Assembly: GCA_947589415.1 (NCBI GenBank)
Contig: CANQBP010000001.1
Span: forward strand, 62,001 to 126,000
Length of the DNA: 64,000 nucleotides
Direction of reading: 5' to 3'
Origin: an uncultured Clostridia bacterium
GTDB taxonomy: Bacteria; Bacillota; Clostridia; Oscillospirales; Acutalibacteraceae
The notes under the pieces are model-generated. The model ran no database searches and was not told where the DNA came from. It saw only the letters and a program-made list of their open reading frames with translations. A program made the position numbers and the translations under genes. This document shows, one piece after another, positions 896-17,187 of this stretch. Position 1 is the first letter of the stretch, and each line of letters opens with the position of its first letter.

Positions 896-1447
896 TCAAT
901 ACGACACTGCAAGCATATCTGCCGTAAAACCTTTTTTGTTAAGGGAACAGCAAAGCTCTGTACATTTTTTATATTTTTCAAAGAGCTGCTTTGCCTTAAC
1001 CTCGTCACCGTAAACTTTCCAACAGCCTACACATTTGCAGCCGTTGGCATTATTTTTAATAAACCCCCACACATCTTCGGGCGGGTATCCGAGAAATAAG
1101 CCTATTTCATGTGGAAAATCCTTGTTTTTCTCAAGTCTTTGTATAAGTCTTATGATACATTTGTTTATACTGTTGCACGAATATCCTAAGTTTTTAAGCA
1201 GACTTTGAGCAAGGTCTTTTTCCAGATCCTTTTTTAAAAGAGAGGGTCTGTAAACATAAATAAGAGTACTTCCGTTATGTCTTCTCAACGGTACGATTCT
1301 CATGCCTTTTGAAACAAGACGTTCGTTAAGACTTTTAATATAACTGATCTCGGATTTTTCGTTTTTAAATCGGCAGGTAAACATATTACCCGTTTTGATC
1401 CCTAAAATAGTGGGGGAACAATGCCGCACGAATAATTCGTCAGACAC
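896..1447 (-). CDS. DUF3793 family protein
   Basis: A 183-residue protein of unknown function that I recognise as DUF3793, a family found mainly in Clostridia next to flavodoxin and DUF2325 genes. Family-like blocks include PTILGIKTGNMFTC near the N terminus, the central HEIGLFLGYPPEDVWGFI, and a cysteine cluster CKCVGCWKVYGD that could bind metal. The start is a GTG at 1447 preceded by AAGGAGGTGAG at good spacing. It lies between the flavodoxin gene (43 bp away) and the DUF2325 gene (39 bp away), in one transcription unit. A role in metal or redox homeostasis is suggested only by neighbourhood. Confidence 0.85.
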   Translation of the reverse strand: MSDELFVRHCSPTILGIKTGNMFTCRFKNEKSEISYIKSLNERLVSKGMRIVPLRRHNGSTLIYVYRPSLLKKDLEKDLAQSLLKNLGYSCNSINKCIIRLIQRLEKNKDFPHEIGLFLGYPPEDVWGFIKNNANGCKCVGCWKVYGDEVKAKQLFEKYKKCTELCCSLNKKGFTADMLAVSY

Positions 1448-1486
1448 CGCCTCACCTCCTTTAACAGTACGGTTTAAATAGCTTGT

Positions 1487-1780
1487 TCAAATATCTTTAC
1501 TGCCGTTGAGATACTGTTCGAGAATATTTTTAAGTGCTGATTTAGAACTGCTGTGTGAACGGGCAACCGGAATGTCAAGTTTTTTAACATTATCAAGCGC
1601 ACATTTTACCATTTTATGTGATACCGTATCGGTGAAAAGTACAACAAGATCGGGATTTCCTAAATCCTGCAAACCTCTGCTCATTTTAGGATATACCTTT
1701 GCTCTGCAATTATACATTCTGCAAAGATCTACATATTCCCTAATCATACATTCGTTTCCGCCCACAATTACAAGACTCAT
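1487..1780 (-). CDS. DUF2325 family protein
   Basis: A 97-residue protein, first gene of the leftward operon. It begins with the compact Rossmann-like start MSLVIVGGNECMIREYVDLC and continues with the LVVLFTDTVSHKM and IPVARSHSSSKSALKNIL blocks typical of DUF2325, whose function is unknown. The ATG at 1780 follows GGGGTGATTAAAT. Association with DUF3793 and flavodoxin recurs in Clostridia (from memory of the families). Cys 11 and Cys 20 are possible ligands, but no function should be assigned. Confidence 0.85.
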   Translation of the reverse strand: MSLVIVGGNECMIREYVDLCRMYNCRAKVYPKMSRGLQDLGNPDLVVLFTDTVSHKMVKCALDNVKKLDIPVARSHSSSKSALKNILEQYLNGSKDI

Positions 1781-1834
1781 ATTTAATCACCCCATGTTTT
1801 TAATTTTTGGTTAGTTATATCTAACACACGGTTC

Positions 1835-1904
1835 AAAATACAGTCAGATAGGTTTAATCTATCTAACTGTATTTTAGTTTAATACATCTTACCGGATTTG
1901 TCAA
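1835..1904 (-). promoter_or_regulatory. Promoter with 41-bp palindromic operator for the DUF2325-DUF3793-flavodoxin operon
   Basis: On the minus strand TTGACA (1899-1904) and TAAACT (1876-1881) are exactly 17 bp apart. Directly downstream is an inverted repeat with 17 bp arms (1835-1851 and 1859-1875), one mismatch and a 7-base centre. Its core is TTAGATAG...CTATCTGA. A second, smaller palindrome GTTAGTTATATCTAAC lies at 1810-1825. The large palindrome is centred near +15, where a bound repressor would block the polymerase. The TTAG/CTAA half-sites recall DtxR/IdeR-type iron repressor sites, but the regulator is not known. Confidence 0.7.
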
Positions 1905-2011
1905 TATTTAAAAAAATTTTTTCTCTAATTATTTTGTAATATTCAAAAAGTATTATGCATTAAAATGTACAATTAACTACGGACTTTTCTCAAAAAAATC
2001 TGTTAAAAATG

Positions 2012-2040
2012 TTGAAATCAATTTAACAATTATATATAAT
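2012..2040 (+). promoter_or_regulatory. Sigma-A-type promoter of the MoxR/vWA/SWIM/DUF4132 operon
   Basis: TTGAAA at 2012-2017 and a consensus TATAAT at 2035-2040 are separated by 17 bp, 41 bp before the first ATG of the operon. The 301-base gap between the DUF2325 start and this gene holds only this promoter and the divergent one at 1835-1904; the two are far enough apart to work independently. Confidence 0.7.
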
Positions 2041-2081
2041 AACCTTGAGTGATTTATTTAAGACGGAAAGGAGAAAAAATA

Positions 2082-3194
2082 ATGGAACAAAAATATATAA
2101 AACCGCCTATGGAAGTGAGGTACAAAGAGGAACTTCAAGCTCTTGCGGCTGTTGATACGGGAAGAAAGCCGGAGAATTGGCAGCTTTCCCCAAAGGCTGT
2201 CAGAACGTTTATATTGGGGGCATCAAAGCCCTTGAAATATAACGGAAATAAAATAGAAATACGAAAGAAATTTTTCGGAAATGATGCTCTTGTAGAACGC
2301 TGTATAATAACTCTTGCCGGAAGCAGAGGACTTATGCTGATAGGTGAACCCGGAACAGCCAAGACAATGCTTTCGGAGCTGCTTTCTGCCGCAATAAGCG
2401 GTACAAGTACAAATACCGTACAGGGGACTGCGGGAACTACCGAGGATATGATAAAATACAGTTGGAATTATGCTTTGTTATTGGCAAAGGGTCCCGTTAA
2501 AGAGGCACTTGTACCGTCACCGCTTTATGTGGGAATGTCAAAGGGAATAATAACCCGCTTTGAGGAAATTACACGAACTCCTGCCGAAATTCAAGACAGC
2601 CTTATTTCGGTAATGAGTGATAAGGTATTGAATATACCCGAACTTGAAGAGGAGGGACTTTTGTTTGCAAAGCCCGGATTTAATATAATCGGAACTGCAA
2701 ATATAAGAGATAAGGGTGTTAATGAGATGTCAAGCGCACTCAAGAGGCGATTTAATTTTGAAACCGTCGAGCCCGTGAAAGATGTGCGTCTTGAAAAGCA
2801 AATTATTATAAATGAGGTAGAACAAAATGCGTCTGCGGGCAGGATAGATATGTCGATTGATACTGATGTTGCCGAGCTTCTCGCAACGACATATCATGAG
2901 CTTAGAGAGGGAATTTCGGATTCGGGAATGAAAATAGAAAAGCCTTCAGCCGTTATGAGTACAGCCGAGGCGGTGTCTGTTTATTATCAGACACTTTCAA
3001 ATGCATGGTATTATGAAGAAAACGAAATGAGTATCGGAGAGCTTACAAAAAATCTTAACAATGCAGTTTGTAAGGATACAAAAGATGATCTTGAAAAATT
3101 GAAGGCTTATTTTAATACGGTTGTAAAGTACAAGTCGGAAAAGGTCGGTGGATTATGGAAGAAGTTTTACGAAGCAAGGAAATATTTGAAATAA
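2082..3194 (+). CDS. MoxR-family AAA+ ATPase (YehL-like), first gene of the six-gene system
   Basis: A 370-residue AAA+ ATPase. Walker A is GEPGTAKT at residues 88-95; the Walker B region is RFEEITR about 70 residues later; sensor 1 is IIGTANIRDKG; the arginine finger region is LKRRFNFE. The A-to-K change in GEPGTAKT and the EITR motif fit the MoxR clade, whose members act as chaperone-like remodelling ATPases together with vWA proteins. I start the gene at ATG 2082, 6 bases after GGAGA; an upstream GTG at 2049 has no ribosome site. The next gene overlaps its 3' end by 40 bases. The closest arrangement known to me is the E. coli yehL group. Confidence 0.88.
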   Translation: MEQKYIKPPMEVRYKEELQALAAVDTGRKPENWQLSPKAVRTFILGASKPLKYNGNKIEIRKKFFGNDALVERCIITLAGSRGLMLIGEPGTAKTMLSELLSAAISGTSTNTVQGTAGTTEDMIKYSWNYALLLAKGPVKEALVPSPLYVGMSKGIITRFEEITRTPAEIQDSLISVMSDKVLNIPELEEEGLLFAKPGFNIIGTANIRDKGVNEMSSALKRRFNFETVEPVKDVRLEKQIIINEVEQNASAGRIDMSIDTDVAELLATTYHELREGISDSGMKIEKPSAVMSTAEAVSVYYQTLSNAWYYEENEMSIGELTKNLNNAVCKDTKDDLEKLKAYFNTVVKYKSEKVGGLWKKFYEARKYLK

Positions 3195-5563
3195 TTCCGT
3201 TTAATTATGATTTGCCGGTTTTATTTTTTCCCGTTCGGCATCATAGTCCTGCCTGTTCGTATCATCTGCAAAAGGTAATTGAGAAATACAGACCGGACTG
3301 CATACTTGTTGAAGGTCCGCAGAATGCGGATAAACTTATTCCCGTGCTTACGGACGACGGGACAGTACCTCCCGCGGCATTTTATTATTTTTATAAGGAC
3401 AGCGCAAAATATATAAGTGAAGATGCCGAGGATTATAAATGCTACTATCCGTTTTTGAGTACGTCGCCCGAATACAATGCGCTTGTTTATGCAAGAAAGA
3501 ACAATATTAACTGCGGCTTTATTGATATGCCCTACGGGGAAATACTTATCAATACAGCGGAAAACATGGGACTTCGCCGAAAAAGAGAAGTTCCGAGTTA
3601 CAGCGACGACCATTATCTGTCGGAGGGCAAGTTTTTTGAGGCATTGTGCAAAAAAACGGGAATGAGGAGTTTTGAGGAATTTTGGGAAAGATTTTTTGAA
3701 ATTGACTCACTTTATATGAATACGGAAGAATTTGTCAAAAGAATGTACACATACTGCTTTCTGTTGAGAAAAAATACGCCTGAAGATGATATGCATAAAG
3801 ACGGCTGCCTTGTTCGTGAAAGCTATATGTCGGAATGTATCAGAAGCTCTATGAAAACGCATGAAAGGGTACTTGTCGTAACCGGAGGCTTTCATTCATA
3901 CGGATTATATAATCTTGTCTTTGGCGGGGGAAAATCCTCAAAAGTAAAACTGCATAATTTCGGCAGTAAGGTGCAGGACGTATATGCAATGTGCTATTCG
4001 TATGAGTTAGCCGATGCACTAAACGGATATGCTTCCGGTATGCAAAATCCCGGATTTTATAATGAGGTGTGGGCACTTATAAAAAATAAAACCGAAGCCG
4101 GCGAAAGCATAGAAAAAGTATATGATGATGTAATAACCGAAACACTTCTCAAATGTGCAAAGGAATGTGTTAAATCAAAACTGCTTATAACGCTGTCGGA
4201 TATCTCCTCCGCAACATTGATGTACAGGGGACTTGCAGCTATACGTGATAAAAAATCTGCAGGTCTTTACGAATTGTATGATGCCGTGCAAAGCTGTTTT
4301 ATTAAAGGCGAATTGAATGCGTCGAGCAGTCTGCCGCTTGATATCCTGAATAAAACCGCAGCAGGCAGCGGCATGGGAAAATTAAGCGACAGGGCGGAAA
4401 AAGTACCGATAATAAAAGATTTTGAAGATTTGGCGCAAAAATTCAAACTGAAAATCAATATTGTGATTGAACAGAAAATAGAGCTTGATATTTTTTCTAA
4501 GCCGAGTCACATGGAAATAAGCAGGTTATTTTATCGCCTTTCTTTTCTTGAAACGGGTTTTGCAAAAAGAATAAAGGGTGCGGATATTATTGGTAATACC
4601 GACCGAAGCAGAATAAGGGAAATTTGGTCATACAAAAGAAGTGCGGACAGCGATGCCTCACTTATAGATGCAAGTATGTACGGGGCAACCGTTGAAGAGG
4701 CTTGTACCGTATGTGCGGTGCGCAGACTTTTCAGCGAACAAAGAGCCTCAGATGCGGCAAAGCTGTATGTAGAATCCTTTCTGATGGGTATTGACATTAC
4801 GGAAAGTTTTACTCAAAAAATGCAGGATATAATTATTGATGACGGGGACTTTTTTTCAATAGGAAAGGCTGTTTATTATTTCAATATGCTTCATTCTTTG
4901 AAAAAACTTTATGGTGTGAACAACAATAAAGAGGAGTTTTTTCTTGTAAGATGTTTTGACAAAGTCGTGACAATGCTTCCCTCAATTATAAATGTAAGTG
5001 ATGATTATGCCGATGAATGTATCAAAATTTGCAGGCTTATATACAGCCTTGTATCAAATCCGTTTTTAAGCGACAGATATAATGTGCTTATTGATGCCTT
5101 TGTGAGAATGACAACGCAAAAAGATCCGCAGCCTGCCGTGTACGGTGCAGTATTAGGACTTTTATACGGAAGTGCGGGAGAATACAGAAATGAAATAAGC
5201 TATGCCCTGAACGGATATCTTACGGGAACAAAGGAAATGAAAAAACGTGGGGCAATTTTTCTAAAGGGTTTGTTTTCCACCGCCCGTGATATCGTGCTTG
5301 TGGGAAATGCGTTTATAAATATGACGGACGAGCTTATCAGGGGACTGGATATGGAGGATTTTATGGAGGTATTGCCGGAGCTGCGGCTTGCGTTCAGTTA
5401 TTTTACACCGTATGAAATTGACAGCATATCAAAAAAAGCAGCGGATTTATATAATGCCGACAATATCGACATACTGAAAGGAATTAACATATATTCACGT
5501 TTTTATTCAATGGGTATAGAACTTGAAAAGGAAATTTGCAGTGATGTGGAGGTGGGTATGTGA
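3155..5563 (+). CDS. DUF5682 family protein (YehM-like) with TraB/EreA-type motifs
   Basis: An 802-residue protein of unknown function. The N-terminal 250 residues carry ordered motifs: PVRHHSPA (RHH at 28-30), LVEGP (53-55), RESYM (221-225) and VVTGGFHSYG (GGFH at 244-247). In order and spacing these recall the G-x-x-H, E, R-E-x-x-M and G-x-x-H motifs of the TraB/Tiki/EreA/ChaN superfamily, which includes metal-dependent hydrolases; that assignment is my inference. The remaining 550 residues look all-helical, without recognised motifs. It starts inside the ATPase gene (GGTGG before ATG 3155) and its stop overlaps the next GTG, so the three genes are translationally coupled. No signal peptide, so cytosolic. 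Confidence 0.78.
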   Translation: MEEVLRSKEIFEIIPFNYDLPVLFFPVRHHSPACSYHLQKVIEKYRPDCILVEGPQNADKLIPVLTDDGTVPPAAFYYFYKDSAKYISEDAEDYKCYYPFLSTSPEYNALVYARKNNINCGFIDMPYGEILINTAENMGLRRKREVPSYSDDHYLSEGKFFEALCKKTGMRSFEEFWERFFEIDSLYMNTEEFVKRMYTYCFLLRKNTPEDDMHKDGCLVRESYMSECIRSSMKTHERVLVVTGGFHSYGLYNLVFGGGKSSKVKLHNFGSKVQDVYAMCYSYELADALNGYASGMQNPGFYNEVWALIKNKTEAGESIEKVYDDVITETLLKCAKECVKSKLLITLSDISSATLMYRGLAAIRDKKSAGLYELYDAVQSCFIKGELNASSSLPLDILNKTAAGSGMGKLSDRAEKVPIIKDFEDLAQKFKLKINIVIEQKIELDIFSKPSHMEISRLFYRLSFLETGFAKRIKGADIIGNTDRSRIREIWSYKRSADSDASLIDASMYGATVEEACTVCAVRRLFSEQRASDAAKLYVESFLMGIDITESFTQKMQDIIIDDGDFFSIGKAVYYFNMLHSLKKLYGVNNNKEEFFLVRCFDKVVTMLPSIINVSDDYADECIKICRLIYSLVSNPFLSDRYNVLIDAFVRMTTQKDPQPAVYGAVLGLLYGSAGEYRNEISYALNGYLTGTKEMKKRGAIFLKGLFSTARDIVLVGNAFINMTDELIRGLDMEDFMEVLPELRLAFSYFTPYEIDSISKKAADLYNADNIDILKGINIYSRFYSMGIELEKEICSDVEVGM

Positions 5564-6690
5564 CTGATACGGAGAACCTGAATAAATGGCGTCTTATTTT
5601 GGGAAAAAATGCCGAGGGACATATTGATTTTTCGGGAAACGGGGAACAGGTACGAATGTTTCAAAGTATGGAAAATACTCTTGATTTTCTCTACAATATG
5701 GAATACGGCAGTGATATCATGAGAACAGGAAAATCAGGAGGATCAGGTGCATCATCACCTTATGTTGCGGACTGGATAAATGAAATCAGACGCCTTTTTC
5801 CCAAAAGAACGGTTGAAATACTTGAAAAGCAGGCAATAGAACACTTTAATCTGACAGAGCTTTTGCTTGATAGAAAAATACTGCAAAAAATAGAACCAAA
5901 TATGGATTTGCTTAAAGTTATACTTCAATTCAAGCACATGATGAAAAGTGATGTAATAGAAGAAGTCAGGAGAATAATTAAAAAGGTTGTCGATGAGCTT
6001 ACGGAAAAACTGCAAACGGAAATAAAACGCTCCCTCCTCGGAAAGCTGAACAGAAATTTACCGTCTAATGTAAAATCCGTAAGAAATCTTGATATAAAGC
6101 GGACAATAAAGAGGAATTTGAAAAATTACGATACCGAGAAAAATCAAATTGTTCTGAAGAACGTATATTTTAACAGCCGCACAAGGCGTTATAACAAATG
6201 GAGAATAATAATTGCGGTTGATGAGAGCGGATCAATGCTCGACAGTATTATATACAGTGCGGTAATGGCGGGAATATTTGCAAAGCTGCCTATGGTAGAT
6301 ACCAAGCTGATAATTTTTGATACACAAGTAGTGGATTTGAGCGGCTATGCGGACGATCCTGTCGAGGTGCTTATGGGTATGCAGCTCGGAGGCGGTACGG
6401 ATATAGGCAAAGCAATATCATATTGTGAGAGTCTTTGCGTAAATCCGCATAATACGATTTACGTGACGGTAACAGATCTTTACGAGGGAGGAAGTCCCGC
6501 ATATCTTATAAAAACTTGCGGCGATATAATAGCATCGGGAAGTAAAATGGTATTTCTTACTGCACTTGACAGGGAAGCTAACCCCGTGTATGACAGGAGT
6601 ATTGCGCAGGCACTTACGGATATGGGAGCATTTGCAGGTGCTATGACTCCCGAACAGCTTGGGGATCACATAGGCAAAATGATAAGTTAG
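5560..6690 (+). CDS. vWA domain protein with complete MIDAS (YehP-like)
   Basis: A 376-residue protein. Residues 1-200 are helical and charged; a von Willebrand factor A domain fills about 214-370. The metal-ion-dependent adhesion site is complete: DESGSM at 221-226, threonine in LGGGTDIG and aspartate in VTDLYEGG. vWA proteins act as adaptors or substrate receptors for MoxR ATPases, and this one sits two genes from such an ATPase. The GTG start at 5560 overlaps the preceding stop codon (GTGA) and has GGAGGTGGG just upstream. No transmembrane segment, so an intracellular complex is likely. Confidence 0.9.
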   Translation: MTDTENLNKWRLILGKNAEGHIDFSGNGEQVRMFQSMENTLDFLYNMEYGSDIMRTGKSGGSGASSPYVADWINEIRRLFPKRTVEILEKQAIEHFNLTELLLDRKILQKIEPNMDLLKVILQFKHMMKSDVIEEVRRIIKKVVDELTEKLQTEIKRSLLGKLNRNLPSNVKSVRNLDIKRTIKRNLKNYDTEKNQIVLKNVYFNSRTRRYNKWRIIIAVDESGSMLDSIIYSAVMAGIFAKLPMVDTKLIIFDTQVVDLSGYADDPVEVLMGMQLGGGTDIGKAISYCESLCVNPHNTIYVTVTDLYEGGSPAYLIKTCGDIIASGSKMVFLTALDREANPVYDRSIAQALTDMGAFAGAMTPEQLGDHIGKMIS

Positions 6691-6769
6691 CTTTGGGAAA
6701 GAGCATAAGTACACGTCTGTAAAAATATGGATTTACAATGTATCTTTCGCTTTAGGAGTTGTAGTTACA

Positions 6770-8806
6770 ATGGAAAAATTGAAAGAAGATCTGAAAACTG
6801 CCGATGATGAATATCTTGTAAGTATCAGCAATAAGGGAATACTTAAAAGAGCCTATAAGGATATTGAAACGGCAAATATAAAGCTCTCATATATTGACGG
6901 TTCGGCTTATGCTGATGTTGACGGGGTACAGTGCGTTATACTTTCTCCTCTTGCCGCAAGCACCTGTACTTGTCCGTCAAGAAGTATCTGCCGTCATATA
7001 ATAAGCGCAATTTTGCAGCTTAAAAAAGAACTGCTTTCAGACGGTGAAAACAAAAAAGAACAATCGGAGGAAACTGATAAACAGCCGGCAGAAAATAAAA
7101 AGACCGAAGCGTTTAAAAAGGAATTATCCGAATTTCCCCTTGCTAAATTGCAAAAGGCTATGAAGAAAAAATACTATAACGAATATATTGATAAAGCAAG
7201 GCTCGGTATTTTCCCGAATGTTGAAGAAAATACCGTTATTACGGTGGAATTTGCCGAGGATAATACAACCGTCAAGCTGATTTCTCCGCTTGAATATTCA
7301 GCCTGTACCTGTCATAGCAAGGAATTGTGTAAGCATAAGGCGGCGGCAATTCTGACTTGGCAGATAAAGCATAATGTTATAAATACAGAAGAGCTGCTGC
7401 CCGCCGAGGAAGAGGTTGCTGTATATGACATTAAGTCTGTACATGATTGTGCTGAGAATGCTTTGAAGTTTCTTGAAAAAATTTTATCGGACGGGCTTGT
7501 AAGAACTCCCGATGATGCATCGGAAACTGCGGAGTCGGTTGCTGTTATGTGTCATAATGCACATCTTGCGGATACGGAAAAGAAACTGCGTGAAATAGGG
7601 AACAGATTGAACGGGTATATAGAACATTCACCCGAATTTAATTCCGTAATACTTTTTGAAAATATAATGGACGAGCTGATTAACCTTAAACGTATCATAA
7701 CGGAAAACGATGAAGAAAAACTGAAAGAGCTTATGGGGGAATTTAAGAGTAAATATACAATAGCCGATACGTTGGAGATAATACCGCTTGCACAAAGGCA
7801 TTTTTCCTCAAGTGCAGGCTATGAGGGAGAAATATATTATTTCATAAATAAGGATATTGACTCAAGGTACAGTTATTTTACATACTCCGATATACGTCCG
7901 ACCTTTTACGAAACAAACCGCCGCCGTTCTGTATCCAAAGCACCGTGGGGACTTTACGGTGCGGCAGATACAATAATGAAGTATGAACTTCGTCTTACGC
8001 TGCCTAAACTGTCGGGGATAAAGATATCCTCCTCCAATGATACAAAGGCGGAGGAAATATGTAAACCCAATCTAAATCAAGAGGCAATATATGAAAGAAT
8101 ATATACGGATTTTCTGAAATTGGTAAAGGATAAATTTCTATCGGCGGAAGATGATGACAGCGAAAGACTTGTAATGCTTATGCCGGAAAAATGTATAAGC
8201 TCGGTATCCGATGAGATAACGCAGACACATAATATACTTGTCGAGGATAAATACGGACAGTGTATAACTCTGAAAACAAGGTACAGAAGTGATAACAAAG
8301 ATTTTTTTGAGAAGTTTGTCAAGGCAGGAGAAATAATGCTGAAAGATTGCAAAAAAAAATATGTTATATTCGGAAATGCATATATTGAAAACTCAAGATG
8401 TTGTATATATCCGATAGCAATATTCGGTAAAATCACCCCGACGGAAACCGATATTGATGAGGACGAAATATTCGGCTGCGATGACAGATACGATTATTTT
8501 GCCAATCTGTTCCAAAGTCTGAAAAGTATTTTATGTGATTTGATACAATGCGGAATAAATACATTTGATCTGTATTCTCAAATTGAGGACAGCGGTGAGG
8601 AATGTAAAAAATCGGGACTTATAATGCTTTCGGAAAATTTGCAAATGCTTGCTGATTTGCTTAGGGCAAAAAATCATACATACATCGAAGATAATTCCGA
8701 AATAATTGAACTGCTTGCAAAAATTTACAGGTATCTGAAAACAGGTATTAAGAAAACCCAAATAAGACAGGCAATCAATAACCTGTATTATAAAGAGGAC
8801 AATTAG
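6770..8806 (+). CDS. Double SWIM zinc-finger protein (YehQ-like)
   Basis: A 678-residue protein with two SWIM-type zinc fingers (C-x-C-x(n)-C-x-H): C66, C68, C74, H76 in CTCPSRSICRH, and C179, C181, C187, H189 in CTCHSKELCKH. A charged linker joins them. SWIM fingers bind DNA or protein, and single-SWIM proteins accompany MoxR/vWA genes elsewhere. The C-terminal 450 residues are helical and match nothing I recognise. ATG 6770 follows TAGGAG at a slightly long distance; the 79 bp gap to the vWA gene shows no terminator, so it is read as the same operon. Confidence 0.85.
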   Translation: MEKLKEDLKTADDEYLVSISNKGILKRAYKDIETANIKLSYIDGSAYADVDGVQCVILSPLAASTCTCPSRSICRHIISAILQLKKELLSDGENKKEQSEETDKQPAENKKTEAFKKELSEFPLAKLQKAMKKKYYNEYIDKARLGIFPNVEENTVITVEFAEDNTTVKLISPLEYSACTCHSKELCKHKAAAILTWQIKHNVINTEELLPAEEEVAVYDIKSVHDCAENALKFLEKILSDGLVRTPDDASETAESVAVMCHNAHLADTEKKLREIGNRLNGYIEHSPEFNSVILFENIMDELINLKRIITENDEEKLKELMGEFKSKYTIADTLEIIPLAQRHFSSSAGYEGEIYYFINKDIDSRYSYFTYSDIRPTFYETNRRRSVSKAPWGLYGAADTIMKYELRLTLPKLSGIKISSSNDTKAEEICKPNLNQEAIYERIYTDFLKLVKDKFLSAEDDDSERLVMLMPEKCISSVSDEITQTHNILVEDKYGQCITLKTRYRSDNKDFFEKFVKAGEIMLKDCKKKYVIFGNAYIENSRCCIYPIAIFGKITPTETDIDEDEIFGCDDRYDYFANLFQSLKSILCDLIQCGINTFDLYSQIEDSGEECKKSGLIMLSENLQMLADLLRAKNHTYIEDNSEIIELLAKIYRYLKTGIKKTQIRQAINNLYYKEDN

Positions 8807-8895
8807 TGTTTGCTTTTAGTTATTTTTCCGACGGCTTATAAAAGACATAAATCAAATGTGAAACAGAAAACTTTCGTGAAAGTGAGGAAATGAAA

Positions 8896-11800
8896 ATGAA
8901 TATTTTGGCGGATATTGTAAATGACAGTAACATTACCCGAAAAATACTCTATGTGTTGGGACAGCTTGGAATTTGCGGGGAAGAAGAGGAGATTGCAAGG
9001 GAATTTTTTGATTTTTCAAAGGAGGCTGATTTGTCCCTGCTGACTCGGCTGAAATTGAAAAATCTGAATTATGATTCGGCTCATAATGACAGTAATATGC
9101 TTTTTGACGAGATCAAATGTCTGCCGAAAGACATAACAATGGAAGTGTCCGATAGATTTATTCTGTTTCTTGATGCACTTTGTGGGAATACGATAGGTCG
9201 TTTTTTGTTTCGTATATATTATGAGTATGAAAACGCAGGATTAAGGAATAGATTATGCCATGCTTACGAAAGAAAATATTCCGCAGAAGAATTGCAGCCC
9301 AAAATGCTGGCTTTTTCGGCATTTGGTATGAGCATTGGGAAAAATCTATACACGAACAGCATTATTTTAGCGGCTGCAAAGAATCCCCGTGATGCTTACG
9401 TAGCCGGAAAGAACTATTGTATCAAAGATAACAGTCTGGCTCGTGAGAGACTCTATTCCCTTGCCCTTGCTTACCAAAAAGATGATACATTCAGTGCCGA
9501 AGAACTGGAGGAAATGGAAGGTTGTCTTTTGCAGACAGAAAAAGCTATGTCTTTTCATTACACTGCCGATCAGGAAAATATGGTTCTCCTGTTGTATATG
9601 AGCATGAATTACGGAGATGAACTTCGTCATAGATTTAAACTCCGAATGAAAATGAATTATGATACCCTGCTGTCAGCAATCCTTCAATTCATACCCGATA
9701 ACTATTTCAAAAATAACATGGAGATAGTGGTTGAGGTAGGCGAAACTGCGCTAAATTCAAGCGTGGAAAAAATGATAAAACGCACAGTACAGAGTGCGGT
9801 AATTGTCGATGCTTTCAAGATGCCGGAATCAGGATATCAGGCAAAGAACTCTCTTTGTTTTTTGGAAATGCTGGCAAAAAAATACACTGAACAATTCATA
9901 TCCTGTATGTCCTCCAACGAACCCTTGGGAGTCGGAGCAAAGTGGGGATATATGTTTGACTTTTATCGGTACCTGTATAAAATACTGGAAAGGGCTGTAC
10001 CTGATGTAAAAGAAAAATATGGCTTTGATACTGAAAATATAATGATAGACAATGTTATTCACCAAGAGGTAACGGATGTAAAAAACACTATCCGACGGGA
10101 AGTTATGGATTATCTGAAAGGAAATGCAGATGTCAGCGTTTTAGAGTCGGTGAGAGATGAACTGCTTGAAAATCATAAAAAATGGAGCTACAATCGGCAT
10201 GAGGTAAACTTACTAAGTCAGCTTGCCGGATGCGGAGAATTTTATAACAGGTATTTGTCACTTAAAATCATTCAAAATCCCGGCTGCATTGAAGAGTACA
10301 TCAGTGCAATATTCCGCAGAAACGAAAATGAATTAGCGAAAACGACCATGATCAATGTTTTCAGAGGTGTTATCCGAGAGCATATTTCGCCGGAGGACAG
10401 AATAGGTTTATTTGAATTGATATGCAACCAAAATTTATATTTTGAAGAAAGAAAAACTCTGATAACAGATGCTGCGGTTGCCATTATGGAAGAAAACAGT
10501 GAAGAATTTGATGAAGTCTACGAAATAATATGTCCGAAGCAGGATACGATTATTCGTTGCTGTTATGCCCGTTATCTTGAAAAAACCAATGTCGGCGGCA
10601 AGAACAAAGATCGTCTTATAGCTATGTGTGGTGACAGTTCAAAGGAAGTGCGCCGCATCATAACGGAAATTATCGGACAGCATAGGGAATATGAAAATGA
10701 GGTACTATCAATGCTTTCGGCAAAAAAGCTGGCACTAAGAGAAACAGCTGTTGATATTATCTGCATATGGGGTGTGTCCGATTATTGCGAAATTCTTAAA
10801 AAAGCTGCGGACAGCGAAAAGAGTGTAAAGCTCGCAGATAAGATTAGGGATTTGCTTAGTACCGCTTTATCAATTAAAAATGACGGCGAACATATTTTTA
10901 ACCCAATCGCATTTGTTGAGGATATGCATAGCGGAAAAAGGGCAAAGAAAATTATGTGGCTCTATGATGCTCCTGTTCCGCAGGTTCATTTCAAAAACGG
11001 AGAAATTGCAGATGATAAGTATCTGCAGGCAATAATTCTTTGCTACTGCTCTATGCCTGTACCGGGAAGAAATGAAGGTGCTATGATGCTTGCATCCGAG
11101 CTTGATGAAGAAGAACTGAACCGTTATTCGGCAGAAATATTTTCACATTGGATTAGTGCGGGTGCAGAAGCCAAAACAAAATGGGCAATGTATTTTGCAA
11201 TAATCCACGGCGGAAACAGCATGGTAGAGATAGCACTCAAATGCATAAAAGACTGGTCGGAAAATATGAGGGGTGCAATAGCCGCCGAAGCCGTAAAGGC
11301 AATAGCACTTAACGGAAGTCCGCTTGCCTTAATGACTGTCGATAATTTAGCACATAAATTCAAGCAAAAACAGGTAAAGAAAGCCGCAGCGGAGGCTATG
11401 GATACCGCCGCCGAAGCACTCGGTATTACCGCTGATGAGCTTGGAGATAAGATAGTACCCGACCTCGGTTTTGATGAAAATATGCAAAGAATATTTGATT
11501 ACGGTACAAGAAAATTCAAGGTATATCTGACTCCTGCATTAGAGCTTGAAGTATATGACGAAACCGACAAGAAACTTAAAACTATGCCGTCACCCGGTAA
11601 GAAAGATGATGAGGAAACGGCTAAGACGTCTAACGCGGAATTTAAGCAGATGAAAAAACAGCTTAAAAATGTTATTGCTATACAGAAAACACGTCTTGAA
11701 ACCGCACTGCTTGCCGACAGAAGGTGGAGTAAGGATAACTGGGAGAAACTGTTTGTGAAAAATCCCGTAATGCACAGCTTTGCAATAGGTCTGATATGGG

Positions 11801-12444
11801 CGGCATATGACGGGGATAATATGGTTCGGACGTTCCGATATATGGAGGACGGTACGTTTAATACCGTAGATGAGGAAGAATATGAACTTGCAGACAATAT
11901 GAAAATCGGGCTTGTACACCCGATAGACCTTGACGATGATACACTTTCCGCATGGAAAGAGCAGTTGAGTGACTATGAGATATTACAGCCGATAGAACAG
12001 CTTGAACGTAGGGTTTACAGAGTAAAAGACGAGGAAACGGGGAAATTTGACCTTAACCGTTTCAGCGGCAGAGTGCTTAACGGATTGTCACTTATGGGCA
12101 GAATGGAAAAATTCGGTTGGTCTAAGGGTTCGGTACAAGATGCGGGGGGATTTTCCGTATTTTACCGTGAGGACGTTACCGAAAAAATTAAAAATCCCGA
12201 CGGTACCGTAAGCCTCAAAGGAAATGCGGTTGAACTTCATTTCAGCGGAATGTATATAGGTGATTATGATGAGGATATAACGATAGAAAATGTGCGTTTC
12301 TACACACCCGGAACAATACGGCACGGAAGTTATGTTTATGACGAAGCAGACGACAACAAGGCTATAATGCTTGATAAGGTAAACCCAAGATATTTCAGCG
12401 AGATTTTAAATCAGCTTGAAGAAATAACAAAACTTACAGAATAA
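8896..12444 (+). CDS. DUF4132 protein, copy 1 (MolR/YehI-like)
   Basis: About 1,182 residues. The N-terminal two-thirds is helical with HEAT-like stretches (for example SSKEVRRIITEIIGQH, then LALRETAVDIICIW). The C-terminal third holds the DUF4132 domain, with blocks such as LERRVYRVKDEETG, FGWSKGSVQDAGGF, VELHFSGMY and PRYFSEILNQLEE. Function unknown. I prefer ATG 8896 over 8890 because GTGAGG then has normal spacing. From base 11,293 the sequence is almost the same as in the next gene (a 239-base run is identical), while the 5' two-thirds differ clearly. Large size, repeats and neighbours suggest a scaffold or substrate-recognition subunit; this is inference. Confidence 0.85.
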   Translation: MNILADIVNDSNITRKILYVLGQLGICGEEEEIAREFFDFSKEADLSLLTRLKLKNLNYDSAHNDSNMLFDEIKCLPKDITMEVSDRFILFLDALCGNTIGRFLFRIYYEYENAGLRNRLCHAYERKYSAEELQPKMLAFSAFGMSIGKNLYTNSIILAAAKNPRDAYVAGKNYCIKDNSLARERLYSLALAYQKDDTFSAEELEEMEGCLLQTEKAMSFHYTADQENMVLLLYMSMNYGDELRHRFKLRMKMNYDTLLSAILQFIPDNYFKNNMEIVVEVGETALNSSVEKMIKRTVQSAVIVDAFKMPESGYQAKNSLCFLEMLAKKYTEQFISCMSSNEPLGVGAKWGYMFDFYRYLYKILERAVPDVKEKYGFDTENIMIDNVIHQEVTDVKNTIRREVMDYLKGNADVSVLESVRDELLENHKKWSYNRHEVNLLSQLAGCGEFYNRYLSLKIIQNPGCIEEYISAIFRRNENELAKTTMINVFRGVIREHISPEDRIGLFELICNQNLYFEERKTLITDAAVAIMEENSEEFDEVYEIICPKQDTIIRCCYARYLEKTNVGGKNKDRLIAMCGDSSKEVRRIITEIIGQHREYENEVLSMLSAKKLALRETAVDIICIWGVSDYCEILKKAADSEKSVKLADKIRDLLSTALSIKNDGEHIFNPIAFVEDMHSGKRAKKIMWLYDAPVPQVHFKNGEIADDKYLQAIILCYCSMPVPGRNEGAMMLASELDEEELNRYSAEIFSHWISAGAEAKTKWAMYFAIIHGGNSMVEIALKCIKDWSENMRGAIAAEAVKAIALNGSPLALMTVDNLAHKFKQKQVKKAAAEAMDTAAEALGITADELGDKIVPDLGFDENMQRIFDYGTRKFKVYLTPALELEVYDETDKKLKTMPSPGKKDDEETAKTSNAEFKQMKKQLKNVIAIQKTRLETALLADRRWSKDNWEKLFVKNPVMHSFAIGLIWAAYDGDNMVRTFRYMEDGTFNTVDEEEYELADNMKIGLVHPIDLDDDTLSAWKEQLSDYEILQPIEQLERRVYRVKDEETGKFDLNRFSGRVLNGLSLMGRMEKFGWSKGSVQDAGGFSVFYREDVTEKIKNPDGTVSLKGNAVELHFSGMYIGDYDEDITIENVRFYTPGTIRHGSYVYDEADDNKAIMLDKVNPRYFSEILNQLEEITKLTE

Positions 12445-12507
12445 TAAGTGAAACAGTCACGGTAATTTTTGGAAGGGGGGATTATACAGAGTGAACAGTT
12501 TTAGACA

Positions 12508-12581
12508 ACATACTTAATATTATCAAGGAGTGGGTTATTACGGGTAAAACAGGCAATCAATACTTAATATTATAAAAGGAG
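12508..12581 (+). repeat. Duplicated leader/ribosome-site element before the second DUF4132 gene
   Basis: A roughly 22-base sequence ending in a ribosome site, TACTTAATATTATCAAGGAG (ends 12,530) and TACTTAATATTATAAAAGGAG (ends 12,581), occurs twice, 51 bases apart. The second copy serves the ATG at 12,591. The first has no open reading frame behind it and looks like a leftover of a duplication. Confidence 0.6.
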
Positions 12582-12590
12582 ATAACTAAA

Positions 12591-15500
12591 ATGGATCTAT
12601 TAAACAATAAGAAATACGGCGCTTCAGACCTGCAACAGAAAATATTAACGAAGCTTTCATTTGTGGGAATAAGTGTAGAAAATATGGAAATAGCCGAGGA
12701 ATTTTTCGATTTTTCAAAAGAGCGTGACCTTAGTCTTTTGGATAAAATAAAGCGTCAATATTTGTTCAAGGACGACAATGAGCGTGATATAGATTTAAGA
12801 ACCTTGATATATGAATTGTTATATAGAAGAGGGGAGGATTGTTCCGTAAGATGGACACTGTTTTTTGATGCACTCGGCGGAAGCACAATCGCAAGGTATC
12901 TCGTACTTGACCCTGAAAATGTGCATTTTAAATTATTATTCAATATTTTTAAAGTTAAATATAGTGAGGAATTATCAGCCGCTAAAGTTCTTGCTCTAAT
13001 GCCCGATTCCGATTCAAGAGCCTTATTCATAGAAAAACCTGAAATACTATATATGGCAGGAAGTGAATGTTGTACGGAAGATGAAAGCTATGCAAGAGCT
13101 TCATTATACGCATATATTATCGGATATTGTAAAGACAGCGAAAAGATTACCAATGAACAGATAAAGCTGATGTGCGACTATATCGTTTCAAGGCTCGGTA
13201 TTATAGAATATGCGGAAGAAAAAGAACGGATATACGATTATATCATTCCAAGGGTCGGTATTAAAGAATATGAAGGCAAAAAAGAAAAGGATTTATTTAA
13301 AAAAGCGAAAATTGCCTTTGAGTCGCTTTGCGGAGATAAAAGAATTTACAAACTTATGAAGAATTATGTAAAACAGGATATCAGAGTAATAATAGAAAGT
13401 GTGTATGGCGAGGGAGATATATGTATAAAAAATAATATTGATAAACTTCTCTCTATCGTAGACAATGATAAATTTTTAGATTTCGCAAATAAAGAATTTA
13501 AAAGGAAAGAACGCATTACATTGATTATGTATTCAATATGTAAATGCTATATTGAATATTATCCTTTGAATAAAGACAGGATTGGCAACGGAAATATCAA
13601 TGCATACTATTACATTCTTAAATATATGGCACAAAAATATCCGACAGAGTTTGCTTGTGTTATGTTTAGCGGTGAAAAATTACCATACAATTTCGGGGGC
13701 GTCGGTTACATTTGTTTTTATACGAAAATGCTTGATATACTTGAAAAAAACAATCCGAAATATATTAAAGAGGGTAATATTGATTTTGAGAAGAAATTTA
13801 TTGATGCGGTAATTAACTGTGAAAAGCGTATTGCAAATCAAATTTCCGATGAGATTGAAAAATATCTGAGTGGGCAAGCCGATATTTCGGTTTTACAGAA
13901 TGTTATTGATGAGGTGGATTACGGTTTCTATTACCGATATAATAAGATGATGATAGAAGCCGTGGAGATATATCCGAAATTTTATGACAAATATGTATCC
14001 TTTAAAACCATTGTGTGTCCGGATCATGTAGCCGGAAGTGTACAATCCGATAATGCATATAGTCTTGTAAAGAAAATTATATCTGCACTTATAAGGGAAA
14101 ATGTTACTATGCAGCATCGTATAAAATTATATGAATATATTAACGAAGTTACATATAACGAACGTGTGTCCCGCCTTGCCGAAGAGGCAATCAGAGATTC
14201 AATGGTTGAACGAAGAGAAGAACTTGACAGCGAATATGAAATGTTTTTCGGGAACGGCTCTGTATATCTAAGAAAGATTTATGCGGAATATCTTGACATA
14301 ACCAACGGCGAGGATAATAAAAATAAAGACAGATTACTTGCTATGTGTTCGGATACCTCAAAGGAAGTCAAAGCTGTTGTTATCAATTTGATATTAAAGC
14401 ATAAGGAATATGAGGAAGATATATTCGGTCTTATTTCCTCAAAAAAGCAGGCTGTCCGTGATACTGCAATAGATATACTGTCGGGTTGGGGAGCAAATAA
14501 TTACCGTGATATTTTTGAAAAAGCACTTAAAACCGAGAAAAGTGCAAAAATTGCCGATAAACTAAGTAAACTGCTGAATATTGCAGTTTCGGGAAAATCA
14601 GAGGAAACTGAAAATTTACCGGAACAGATAGTAGAAAAACTGCATAAGGGCGGTAAGAACAGAAAAGTTTTATGGCTGTATGAAAAAGCAAATCCCGTTG
14701 TACATTTCAAAAACGGGGAAGCGGCTGATGATAAATATATGCAGGCAATAATACTTTGCTATGCAAATATGCAGACACTCGGCAGGAATGATGTTGCAAT
14801 TATGCTTGCCGATAAACTCAAGGAAGATGAACTGTCAAAATTTTCAATGGAAATATTCTCAAAATGGCTCGATGACGGTGCGGAGTCCAAAAAGAAATGG
14901 GCATTGTATTTTTCGGTAATTCACGGCGGAGATGTAATGGTGGAAACCGCACTTTCATACATAAAGGAATGGGCGGAGAATATGAGGGGGGCAATAGCCG
15001 CCGAGGCCGTAAAGGCAATAGCACTTAACGGAAGTCCGCTTGCCTTAATGACTGTCGATAATTTAGCACATAAATTCAAGCAAAAACAGGTAAAGAAAGC
15101 CGCAGCGGAGGCTATGGATACCGCCGCCGAAGCACTCGGTATTACCGCTGATGAGCTTGGAGATAAGATAGTACCCGACCTCGGTTTTGATGAAAATATG
15201 CAAAGAATATTTGATTACGGTACAAGAAAATTCAAGGTATATCTGACCCCCGCATTAGAGCTTGAAGTATATGACGAAACCGACAAGAAACTTAAAACTA
15301 TGCCGTCACCGGGCAAAAAAGATGATGAGGAAACGGCAAAGGCGTCTAATGCGGAATTTAAGCAGATGAAAAAACAGCTTAAAAACGTTATTTCCATACA
15401 GAAAATACGTCTTGAAACTGCCCTGCTTGCCGACAGAAGGTGGAGTAGGGATAATTGGGAAAAACTGTTTGTGAAAAATCCCGTAATGCACAGCTTTGCA

Positions 15501-16175
15501 ATAGGCTTGATATGGGCGGCATATGACGGGGATAATATGGTTCAGACGTTCCGATATATGGAGGACGGCAGCTTCAATACCGTAGATGAGGAAGAATATG
15601 AACTTACAGACAATGTAAAAATCGGGCTTGTACACCCGATAGATCTTGACGATGATACACTTTCCGCATGGAAAGAGCAGTTAAGCGACTATGAGGTATC
15701 GCAGCCGATAGAACAGCTCGAACGCAGGGTTTACAGAATAAATAACGGAGAAATAGGAAAACTTGACCTTAAACGTTTTAACGGAAGAGTGCTTAACGGT
15801 ATGTCACTTTTAGGCAGGACTTCAAAATTCGGTTGGTCTAAGGGTTCGGTACAAGACGGCGGAGGATTTTACGTATTTTACCGTGAGGACGTTACCGAAA
15901 AAATTAAAAATCCCGACGGTACCGTAAGCCTCAAAGGAAATGCGGTTGAACTTCATTTCAGCGGTATGTATGTCGGCGGTGAAGATGAAAATGTAACAAT
16001 AGAAAATGTTCGTTTCTATATCCCCGGAACAATACGGCACGGAAGTTATGTTTATGACGAGGCAGACAACAAAAAGGCAATAATGCTTGATAAGGTAAAC
16101 CCAAGATATTTCAGCGAGATTTTAAATCAGCTTGAAGAAATAACAAAACAAGCAGAAAGCAGTGCAAAGGCATAA
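12591..16175 (+). CDS. DUF4132 protein, copy 2 (MolR/YehI-like)
   Basis: 1,194 residues, same architecture as the preceding gene: helical, HEAT-like N-terminal part and a C-terminal DUF4132 domain (LERRVYRINNGE, FGWSKGSVQDGGGF, VELHFSGMY). The 3' third (from about 14,968) is nearly identical in DNA to copy 1, whereas the N-terminal 750 residues are only loosely similar, with more lysine and isoleucine. A 60 bp in-frame tandem duplication lies at 13,176-13,295 (DYIVSRLGIIEY followed by DYIIPRVGIKEY). Start ATG with AAAAGGAG 10 bases upstream. It is the last gene of the six-gene operon. Confidence 0.85.
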   Translation: MDLLNNKKYGASDLQQKILTKLSFVGISVENMEIAEEFFDFSKERDLSLLDKIKRQYLFKDDNERDIDLRTLIYELLYRRGEDCSVRWTLFFDALGGSTIARYLVLDPENVHFKLLFNIFKVKYSEELSAAKVLALMPDSDSRALFIEKPEILYMAGSECCTEDESYARASLYAYIIGYCKDSEKITNEQIKLMCDYIVSRLGIIEYAEEKERIYDYIIPRVGIKEYEGKKEKDLFKKAKIAFESLCGDKRIYKLMKNYVKQDIRVIIESVYGEGDICIKNNIDKLLSIVDNDKFLDFANKEFKRKERITLIMYSICKCYIEYYPLNKDRIGNGNINAYYYILKYMAQKYPTEFACVMFSGEKLPYNFGGVGYICFYTKMLDILEKNNPKYIKEGNIDFEKKFIDAVINCEKRIANQISDEIEKYLSGQADISVLQNVIDEVDYGFYYRYNKMMIEAVEIYPKFYDKYVSFKTIVCPDHVAGSVQSDNAYSLVKKIISALIRENVTMQHRIKLYEYINEVTYNERVSRLAEEAIRDSMVERREELDSEYEMFFGNGSVYLRKIYAEYLDITNGEDNKNKDRLLAMCSDTSKEVKAVVINLILKHKEYEEDIFGLISSKKQAVRDTAIDILSGWGANNYRDIFEKALKTEKSAKIADKLSKLLNIAVSGKSEETENLPEQIVEKLHKGGKNRKVLWLYEKANPVVHFKNGEAADDKYMQAIILCYANMQTLGRNDVAIMLADKLKEDELSKFSMEIFSKWLDDGAESKKKWALYFSVIHGGDVMVETALSYIKEWAENMRGAIAAEAVKAIALNGSPLALMTVDNLAHKFKQKQVKKAAAEAMDTAAEALGITADELGDKIVPDLGFDENMQRIFDYGTRKFKVYLTPALELEVYDETDKKLKTMPSPGKKDDEETAKASNAEFKQMKKQLKNVISIQKIRLETALLADRRWSRDNWEKLFVKNPVMHSFAIGLIWAAYDGDNMVQTFRYMEDGSFNTVDEEEYELTDNVKIGLVHPIDLDDDTLSAWKEQLSDYEVSQPIEQLERRVYRINNGEIGKLDLKRFNGRVLNGMSLLGRTSKFGWSKGSVQDGGGFYVFYREDVTEKIKNPDGTVSLKGNAVELHFSGMYVGGEDENVTIENVRFYIPGTIRHGSYVYDEADNKKAIMLDKVNPRYFSEILNQLEEITKQAESSAKA
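13176..13295 (+). repeat. 60-bp in-frame tandem duplication inside DUF4132 copy 2
   Basis: Two adjacent 60-base units (13,176-13,235 and 13,236-13,295) encode related 20-residue segments starting DYIVSRLGIIEY and DYIIPRVGIKEY. The first DUF4132 gene lacks the duplication. Confidence 0.7.
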
Positions 16176-16179
16176 AAAA

Positions 16180-16208
16180 AAATTCCCTGCCGCAGTTGTG
16201 CGGCAGGG
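16180..16208 (-). terminator. Rho-independent terminator of dapF (and end of the DUF4132 operon)
   Basis: A perfect 10 bp GC-rich stem (CCCTGCCGCA 16,185-16,194; TGCGGCAGGG 16,199-16,208) with loop GTTG. On the minus strand it is followed by a long T run (the A run at 16,174-16,182), an ideal terminator for dapF. On the plus strand the T run is poor, but the stem is in the right place to slow readthrough from the DUF4132 gene. Confidence 0.85.
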
Positions 16209-16214
16209 CAGACA

Positions 16215-17069
16215 TTATTCTAAATCATCTGTATCTATAACTCCCTCGAATACCTTAACGGCGTTACCCTCCATTATCACGGTATCATCGTCTTTGAAAG
16301 TGTCTGTAAGAATACCGCCGCGGAGATTTACGCTTATGGGAGTGTTTCGCCTGCAATAGCCGTTAAGCACACTCGCAACCGCTGCGGCACATGACCCCGT
16401 TCCGCAGGCATAAGTTTCTCCCGAACCACGCTCCCATACCCTCATTCGGATATTTTTGTCATCAATTATTTGTATAAATTCCGTGTTTACCCTGTCGGGG
16501 AAGATGGGAAGATTTTCAAACACCGGACCGATTTTTTCAAGCTCTATACTGTCAACATCATCTACAAAGGTCACACAATGCGGATTGCCCATTGAAACGG
16601 CCGTGCAAAGATATGTTTTTCCGCAAACGTCCAACGGCTGATTTATAAAGCTATCGCCGTCATAGAGCATAGGTATATCTTTGGGAGTCAAAACAGCCTT
16701 TCCCATATCAACGCTTGCACCTGCAAATTTGTTGTTCTCGCTCTTTATTTTAATGGTTTTTATCCCGCTTTTAGTATCAATGGTCACAATATCCTTGTGA
16801 GCATAATTATTGTCATAAATGAATTTTGCGACACAACGTATTGCGTTGCCGCACATAGCACCTTCGGAGCCGTCAATATTGAACATACGCATTTGTGCAT
16901 CTGCCTTATCGGACGGGCATATCAGGACTATACCGTCCCCGCCTATTCCCTTGTGCCTGTCGGAAATTAAAATGCTTAAATCATTAGGATTATCAATTTT
17001 GTATTCAAAGCAATCAATATAGATATAATCATTTCCCGCACCGTGCATTTTGGTAAAGTGTATTTTCAT
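16215..17069 (-). CDS. dapF: Diaminopimelate epimerase
   Basis: 284 residues, full family length. DapF converts LL- to meso-diaminopimelate without a cofactor, for lysine and peptidoglycan synthesis in the cytosol. Both catalytic cysteines are present, in EGAMCGNAIRC and in YACGTGSCAAAVAS. The N terminus KMHGAGNDYIYID is the family signature. ATG 17,069 follows AAGGAGGAATTTTC. The gene stands alone with its own promoter and terminator. Confidence 0.97.
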   Translation of the reverse strand: MKIHFTKMHGAGNDYIYIDCFEYKIDNPNDLSILISDRHKGIGGDGIVLICPSDKADAQMRMFNIDGSEGAMCGNAIRCVAKFIYDNNYAHKDIVTIDTKSGIKTIKIKSENNKFAGASVDMGKAVLTPKDIPMLYDGDSFINQPLDVCGKTYLCTAVSMGNPHCVTFVDDVDSIELEKIGPVFENLPIFPDRVNTEFIQIIDDKNIRMRVWERGSGETYACGTGSCAAAVASVLNGYCRRNTPISVNLRGGILTDTFKDDDTVIMEGNAVKVFEGVIDTDDLE

Positions 17070-17108
17070 GAAAATTCCTCCTTTGAATAATACGGTAACT
17101 TTATTCTG

Positions 17109-17137
17109 ATTATATCAGCTTTGATTGAATTTTACAA
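17109..17137 (-). promoter_or_regulatory. Promoter of dapF
   Basis: On the minus strand TTGTAA (17,132-17,137) and a consensus TATAAT (17,109-17,114) are 17 bp apart, 40 bases before the dapF start codon. Confidence 0.6.
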
Positions 17138-17187
17138 TAGTACATCATAATTGTGCATAAGAAAAAATTAAAAGGAGTCAACAGCTT

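Follow-up and report, generated by a model that had tools for sequence, protein, structure and literature searches.

A YehL-type MoxR/vWA operon with a variable, recombining DUF4132 subunit in a Clostridia bacterium, and its counterpart in Escherichia coli

What could be the function of a six-gene operon that combines a MoxR-like AAA+ ATPase with two giant DUF4132 proteins? The operon lies at 2082-16175 on the + strand of a 64,000-nucleotide stretch (hereafter, the window) of contig CANQBP010000001.1 from an uncultured Clostridia bacterium, whose genome assembly has 2.29 Mb. It encodes, in order, the AAA+ ATPase, a DUF5682 protein, a vWA protein, a double-SWIM protein, DUF4132a and DUF4132b. 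All six open reading frames (ORFs) of the same-strand operon, with overlaps in genes 1-3, were present as a preliminary description of the locus had stated, and so were their Pfam families: AAA_5 (5e-33), DUF5682 (8e-88), VWA_CoxE (1e-37), SWIM (2e-5) and DUF4132 (1e-53 and 8e-50). Judged by sequence, the operon is one copy of a conserved machine that is widespread among bacteria and also present in E. coli: five families occur together, the AAA+, metal ion-dependent adhesion site (MIDAS) and DUF5682 polar signatures are intact, and DUF4132 combines a C-half that is conserved with an N-half that varies and recombines. We give an even chance to the explanation that it encodes a YehL-type MoxR/vWA machine, driven by nucleoside triphosphates, whose recognition subunit is exchangeable and whose effector is a putative hydrolase, and that its likeliest use is in biological conflict.

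The two DUF4132 proteins (gene 5, DUF4132a, 8890-12444, +; gene 6, DUF4132b, 12591-16175, +) were 31% identical over residues 1-600, 54% over 601-800 and 91% over 801-1184. Both giant helical proteins of the preliminary description are present; however, with such a gradient they are not simple paralogues. In the predicted structure (mean predicted local distance difference test score 86.8, predicted template modelling score 0.55), a long alpha-solenoid gives way to an alpha/beta C-region at about residue 860, and Pfam gave a sub-threshold HEAT_2 match. Averages were calculated from those 9 of the 18 loci in the window's genus (17 plus the window) that had a full-length DUF4132 on the contig. 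Mean pairwise identity was 84% for AAA+, 73% for vWA, 64% for DUF5682 and 51% for the SWIM protein. For DUF4132, calculated per 100 residues, it was 32-41% over residues 1-600, 51% over 601-700, 65-74% over 701-1100 and 58% thereafter; the N-half (codons 1 to about 610) was thus the most variable part of the entire system. When 50 DUF4132 sequences were aligned, the invariant columns all lay at residue 613 or later, and seven nearly invariant ones lay earlier. The same gradient was found in other tandem pairs, for example L059 (50-62% over residues 1-600, 94% over 801-1000), L130 and L102. The G+C content of the DUF4132b N-half was 0.333, which ranks seventh from the bottom among 622 overlapping 1800-bp stretches; in 63 other genomes of the genus it had no match above 39% over any part, and the best match over its length was 32%. 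The N-half of DUF4132a had an 88% match in genome G024. Additional DUF4132 copies lay off-site in G060, G041 and G004, and the DUF4132 gene of G015 lies away from the locus. In locus L087 (15581-17665), a 694-aa DUF4132 N-part without C-half directly precedes a full copy; it may be a broken copy or a spare cassette.

One locus, L033, that of the nearest relative, was the only one of 25 compared (several on short contigs) that shared its site with the window on both sides; in L056 the window's upstream neighbours were present at a distance. The single DUF4132 gene of L033 was a mosaic of DUF4132a and DUF4132b with a break at residue 610. Before the break 827 of 873 informative bases agreed with DUF4132a, and beyond it 63 of 259; the maximum chi-square was 589, and none of 2000 shuffles gave more than 24. 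Fourfold-site divergence between the window and L033 was 73/150 for AAA+, 108/240 for DUF5682, 60/131 for vWA and 68/172 for SWIM (0.40-0.49), and 39/95 (0.41) for dapF, whereas it was 13/142 (0.09) for codons 1-450 of DUF4132a and 8/37 for codons 451-620. Because this divergence is far lower in the N-half, the N-half was exchanged between the two lineages after the operons had diverged. These data bear on a neutral explanation, namely tandem duplication with partial gene conversion, in which the N-half is just fast-evolving and has no role in recognition. Concerted evolution alone can homogenise C-halves, and divergent N-halves also occur in other tandem pairs; however, since divergence at codons 1-450 is four- to five-fold below that of the rest of the operon, this part was exchanged and was not drifting. 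Several distinct alleles at one site in E. coli (below) also speak against the neutral explanation, and we regard it as very unlikely.

The yehH-yehI-yehK-yehL-yehM-yehP-yehQ genes of E. coli MG1655, annotated by domain or as uncharacterized only, matched the window system protein by protein. BLAST aligned the AAA+ protein with YehL (44.8% over 364 aa, 1e-103), DUF5682 with YehM (25% over 782 columns, 1e-42), vWA with YehP (37% over 372 columns, 6e-94), the SWIM protein with YehQ (22% over 198 N-terminal columns, 7e-8) and DUF4132 with YehI/YehH (29% over 354 columns, 9e-48). The E. coli cluster had been described as partly similar; in fact none of the components is missing from it, and its DUF4132 genes stand two or three in tandem. 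Strains L137 and L141 had a WGR-DUF4132 gene free of internal stops, and other strains had three DUF4132 genes in a row, one of them broken in L135. In strain CPF6 an incomplete WGR gene runs straight into an incomplete DUF4132 gene, an arrangement that, on its sequence, is consistent with a deletion between neighbouring genes.

Comparison of nine yehH-type sequences revealed an allelic segment at codons 496-700. Two groups of genes from one site were 62-64% identical there and 94-95% elsewhere; for the second yehH-type copies of L135 and L136, the values were 66% and 93%. Between the stop-free genes of L141 and L137, identity was 35% at codons 551-600 and 40% at 601-650, with flanks of 68% and 70%, versus 80-100% before codon 501 and 92-100% from 701. 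The second copy of L136 differed from L137 and L141 over most of codons 51-450 (40-62% up to codon 400) and was 92-100% identical from 701. Of 4888 genomes with a match to the variable segment of yehH, 639 covered at least 80% of it; for a yehI control segment of equal length the count was 5228 of 5276. The dip in yehI was mild: two windows of 50 codons averaged 84% and 88%, and the others 92-98%. From the position of the DUF4132 domain, we estimate that this stretch of yehH would fall at about residues 410-620 in the DUF4132 protein of the window, with its end close to the breakpoint at 610.

DUF5682 was used as bait in a species-level genome set and gave at least 596 pattern matches, of which 544 were confirmed. 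The best 80 loci were kept; because these are the best DUF5682 matches of at least 544, the gene orders given here are those of the window's relatives. With iterative profiles, 63 of the 80 loci proved to have the five families together on a single strand, in agreement with the self-contained unit proposed earlier. Fifty-one of the 63 had the order of the window, 9 (e.g., in Paenibacillus) had DUF4132 before SWIM, 2 had DUF4132 upstream of the AAA+ gene, and 1 had a second SWIM piece. In 10 of the 17 incomplete loci a contig end lay at or beside the cluster; in L056, L057, L062, L074, L095, L097 and L125 at least one family was absent despite sequence on the expected side. Within the genus, 61 of 64 genomes were covered (G099, G100 and G354, which match DUF4132 N-halves, were outside the DUF5682 search). 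DUF5682 was present in 21 of them and in-system-type DUF4132 in 16, i.e., in 16 of the 21 with DUF5682 and 0 of the 40 without, at a limit of 1e-49 chosen after seeing a gap between 1.7e-49 and 1.9e-40; partial DUF4132 matches in G010, G035, G038 and G040, the last three DUF5682-negative, were left unclassified. Co-occurrence had been named in advance as the test that could refute the proposed system; the genes co-occur, strictly in the genus and less strictly beyond it. E. coli, Sinorhizobium and Iodobacter also had module sets in plasmid records.

The conserved gene set would also suit a machine that, like RavA-ViaA or CoxD-CoxE, chaperones and matures an endogenous protein complex; DUF4132 would then be the adaptor specific for the client. 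An AAA+ protein with a CoxE-like vWA protein is a usual maturation pair (family roles as outlined in PMC3893208), and the yeh cluster is near-universal in E. coli. The molR1 locus is presumably yehF/yehH. Deletion of molR1 combined with deletion of lepA slowed doubling further, from 22 to 33 min, in the growth data given in PMC4245954. However, no neighbour family recurred in more than 9 of the 80 loci. Moreover, the adaptor of a conserved client should not hold segments of 35-40% identity in a gene otherwise mostly 92-100% identical within a species, and its N-half should not move between species apart from its own operon. We consider a chaperone role possible but somewhat unlikely.

A DNA-damage response or repair machine, in which WGR and SWIM would bind damaged nucleic acid and the AAA+/vWA/DUF5682 core would remodel it, is suggested by the WGR domain of two E. 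coli DUF4132 homologues and by a LexA-like CTG-N10-CAG sequence before yehF. In D. radiodurans, the DUF4132 protein DRA0166 and the WGR protein DR2173 were up on DdrO depletion, and a link to the LexA regulon is mentioned in the relevant part of PMC8533742. In the window, Pfam gave no WGR match in the DUF4132 proteins, and no GAAC-N4-GTTC box was present at 1700-2100; such a box occurred in 2 of 73 relatives (0.46 expected). A repair role leaves the variable N-half unexplained, and we judge it distinctly unlikely.

The remaining components carried the signatures expected of their families. Gene 1 (2082-3194, +) encodes the YehL-type MoxR AAA+ ATPase, with GEPGTAKT and RFEEITR signatures in the relatives' alignment. 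Its ORF spans 2049-3194, starting with GTG at 2049; the likelier start is ATG at 2082, directly 3′ of GGAAAGGAG. Gene 3 (5560-6690, +) encodes the CoxE-like vWA protein, the YehP homologue, with MIDAS motifs DESGS, GGGT and TD. Residues D221, S223, S225, T280 and D306 were kept in 78 of 78 rows; row counts here and below slightly exceed the number of distinct sequences, because the window contributes two rows and at least two loci appear under double ids (L039/L058 and L040/L056). Gene 4 (6770-8806, +) encodes the double-SWIM zinc-finger protein, the YehQ homologue. Pfam matched just one finger, the first; the other is a CxC..CxH motif, with C and H conserved in 58-62 of 64 rows. The full MIDAS and the two SWIM fingers proposed earlier are therefore both confirmed. 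In many relatives (L072, L076, L077, L080, L085, L104 and others) the SWIM protein was called as two ORFs, in the six named loci of about 545-610 aa and about 100-170 aa.

The CoxE-type vWA protein, the old name molR and a 1990 report suggest a molybdate or molybdoenzyme (metal insertion) system. MoaC is needed for the molybdenum cofactor. It was found in 0 of 63 genomes of the genus, including the window's, while 11 of 14 controls were positive. A molybdenum role is thus contradicted for the genus, where such a system would need a different metal, and the metal-insertion reading is highly improbable.

Gene 2 (3155-5563, +) encodes the DUF5682 protein, the YehM homologue, with an N-domain at about residues 20-290 and an alpha-helical C-region. 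Two motifs were conserved: [PG]xRH at 26-29, with R28 and H29 in 91 of 91 rows and P (85) or G (6) at position 26, and GGxH at 244-247, with G244 and H247 in 91 of 91 rows. Paired GX2H-type motifs define the TIKI/TraB/ChaN superfamily; the fit of motif 1 is loose, because its first G is mostly P. Alignment by hhalign with six TraB proteins gave a probability of 77.7 and an E-value of 1.9e-5 over 40 columns, and with four of them 26% and an E-value of 7e-4 at motif 2. Below the Pfam cut-off, ChaN matched 17 of 50 DUF5682 members (best E 0.012) and TraB 5 of 50 (best 0.017); ChaN also matched 4 of 12 members (best 0.0014). DUF5682 resembles TIKI/TraB/ChaN hydrolases in its two GxxH-type motifs and in RExxM before the second, with a tentative fold match of the N-domain, and differs from them by a long additional helical region. 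The protein is a putative hydrolase with invariant polar residues; the earlier proposal of an effector or enzyme is borne out as likely. Single ORFs in L030 (4441-7590, 1049 aa) and L046 (4448-7429, 993 aa) matched both the YehM/DUF5682 and the YehP/vWA queries, which suggests DUF5682-vWA gene fusions.

Genes 1-3 overlap, and the gaps after genes 3, 4 and 5 are 79, 83 and 146 bp. A candidate promoter, TTGAAA-17-TATAAT at 2012-2040 (+), scored 11/12 in a consensus scan and was the top of 73 matches in 1400-17200, where shuffles gave 50.8 ± 6.9. Upstream of it lies a near-perfect palindrome (1835-1875, 41 bp, 20-nucleotide arms, 90%), a possible operator or terminator. No convincing + strand terminator was found inside the operon, where two weak intragenic terminator-like sites were listed, and the T-run of a strong hairpin at 16185-16208 is on the - strand, facing dapF. 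One transcript for all six genes is plausible from this layout. The flanks are ordinary chromosome, with flavodoxin and DUF3793 genes upstream and dapF, an M23 peptidase and an S1 protein downstream; Rnf, RNase J, GdpP, FtsH-type and UvrA-type genes lie farther along.

Three further arrangements were observed. On the Iodobacter plasmid (L054, 17879-21536), type I restriction genes follow the module, in this one case. A sister form without canonical DUF4132 (L029, 12075-19946; L050, 7482-15443), with SWIM, a 608-637 aa protein, AAA+, DUF5682 and vWA, occurs in an order-level relative (G090) and in Fusobacterium vincentii; the L029 protein weakly matched the DUF4132 profile (2e-5). A second DUF4132 type of about 1720 aa was found in L155 (3319-8478), L156 (5916-11114) and L157 (3452-8614), the first being DUF5724-DUF4132-DUF7737, and matches of that strength (E 1e-40 to 1e-35) occurred in 13 genomes of the genus, 2 of them also DUF5682-positive.

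In the machine that we propose, the MIDAS of the vWA protein would load the AAA+ ring, the conserved DUF4132 C-half would dock on the AAA+/vWA core, and the HEAT-like N-terminal solenoid would bind a fast-changing target. ATP hydrolysis would then remodel the target or release DUF5682, the TIKI/TraB-like putative hydrolase, as effector; the SWIM protein may be a bridge to nucleic acid or to another protein. Because one core could serve several DUF4132 specificities, an N-half swap would change specificity, and the tandem and off-site copies fit a constant engine with exchangeable receptors. A swapped N-half on a constant C-half is what would be expected of a part that recognises changing targets, and the target-recognising role first suggested for DUF4132 now appears likely from its variable, recombining N-half. 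In the corresponding passages of Kaur et al. (2020; PMC7159879), a region of high variability within a conserved component is treated as a hallmark of conflict systems. By analogy, a role in intracellular conflict with phages, plasmids or other invaders would be the likeliest.

Several observations weigh against this conflict machine. The yeh cluster had some match in 5375 of 5426 E. coli genomes (at least 80% of the query in 3963), and such near-fixation counts against a classical accessory defence role; broken copies in several strains are likewise unlike typical accessory defence. At E 0.01, PADLOC-DB 2.0.0 gave 0 families for all six window proteins, and no PADLOC family occurred in more than 3 of 113 downstream or inner, or 6 of 103 upstream, neighbours (counts without a control set). 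DUF4132 is missing from L056, L062 and L097, and the module is incomplete in L074 and L095, although there is room on both sides. Coupling was looser in 199 genomes of the phylum (3 with both families, 1 with DUF5682 only, 3 with DUF4132 only), and DUF5682 occurred without DUF4132 in the order-level genomes G061, G085 and G090 and in the control Deinobacterium chartae. The SWIM protein is fast-evolving too, at the 51% given above. yehH-yehI pairs within a strain had no N/C gradient (34-47% and 34-44%, counting stretches where at least two residues aligned). Taken singly, the TIKI signals are all weak: the Pfam matches are below cut-off, and the fold match, PDB chain 7w5z_E, was unconfirmed by sequence. 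Fourfold divergence of the DUF4132 C-half to L033 was 32/132 for DUF4132a and 33/139 for DUF4132b (0.24), below that of the operon; for this reason more than one recombination event is likely, and the C-half has probably recombined too.

More tentatively, at somewhat below an even chance, the YehL-type operon may be an intracellular immune machine. DUF4132 would be its variable 'antigen' receptor, with solenoid cassettes shuffled between tandem genes, strains and species and a C-half that plugs into the AAA+/vWA/TIKI-hydrolase core, and E. coli would carry a polymorphic, partly decayed copy by metG. If so, that copy went unnoticed because yehH is broken in K-12. The swapped allelic segments lie in one subunit and not in its partners, which marks where specificity likely sits. 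With a putative effector whose conserved residues can be named, an anonymous operon becomes a machine that can be tested directly in a common laboratory bacterium and, if the conflict reading is true, a chromosomal immune system with a recombining receptor is added.

In type I restriction systems, HsdS is an exchangeable specificity part on a constant enzyme core, with allelic segments within species. The proposed machine is alike in working only, as an analogy: it too would have an exchangeable specificity part on a constant core, and it has within-species allelic segments. No sequence relation is claimed, and no methylase or nuclease family was found by Pfam in the six proteins. MoxR-vWA ternary conflict systems, as portrayed in the passages of PMC7159879 devoted to them, are alike in a MoxR AAA+ and vWA core, in an additional component that contains a variable region and in putative effectors; their MoxR has aromatic N-terminal motifs. 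Unlike in those systems, VMAP, inactive STAND, FtsH and beta-propeller domains were not found by Pfam in the six proteins (the bpMoxR match, at 23 bits, was below the 27-bit cut-off), and the putative effector is encoded apart from vWA rather than as a fusion with it. The main text of PMC7159879 mentions neither DUF4132 nor YehL. The E. coli chaperone pair RavA-ViaA likewise joins an AAA+ ATPase with a vWA partner; however, RavA belongs to another MoxR subfamily than YehL, whose subfamily is named in the MoxR classification of PMC3893208. In the literature searched, outside which most subscription papers fall, DUF5682 was not mentioned, and the portions available described neither the five-gene set as a system nor DUF4132 variability. 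The closest known relative is the E. coli yeh cluster, alike in five adjacent families on one strand, tandem DUF4132 genes and a variable segment in one DUF4132, and unlike in its DUF4132 genes upstream of the AAA+ gene, the N-terminal WGR of the yehH type, BLAST identities of 22-45% to the window proteins and a yehH annotated as a pseudogene in K-12. The window operon is thus one version of the yeh/YehL-type MoxR-vWA cluster and no categorically new system; the new points are that DUF4132 N-halves are exchanged in two bacterial groups far apart and that DUF5682 can be read as TIKI-like.

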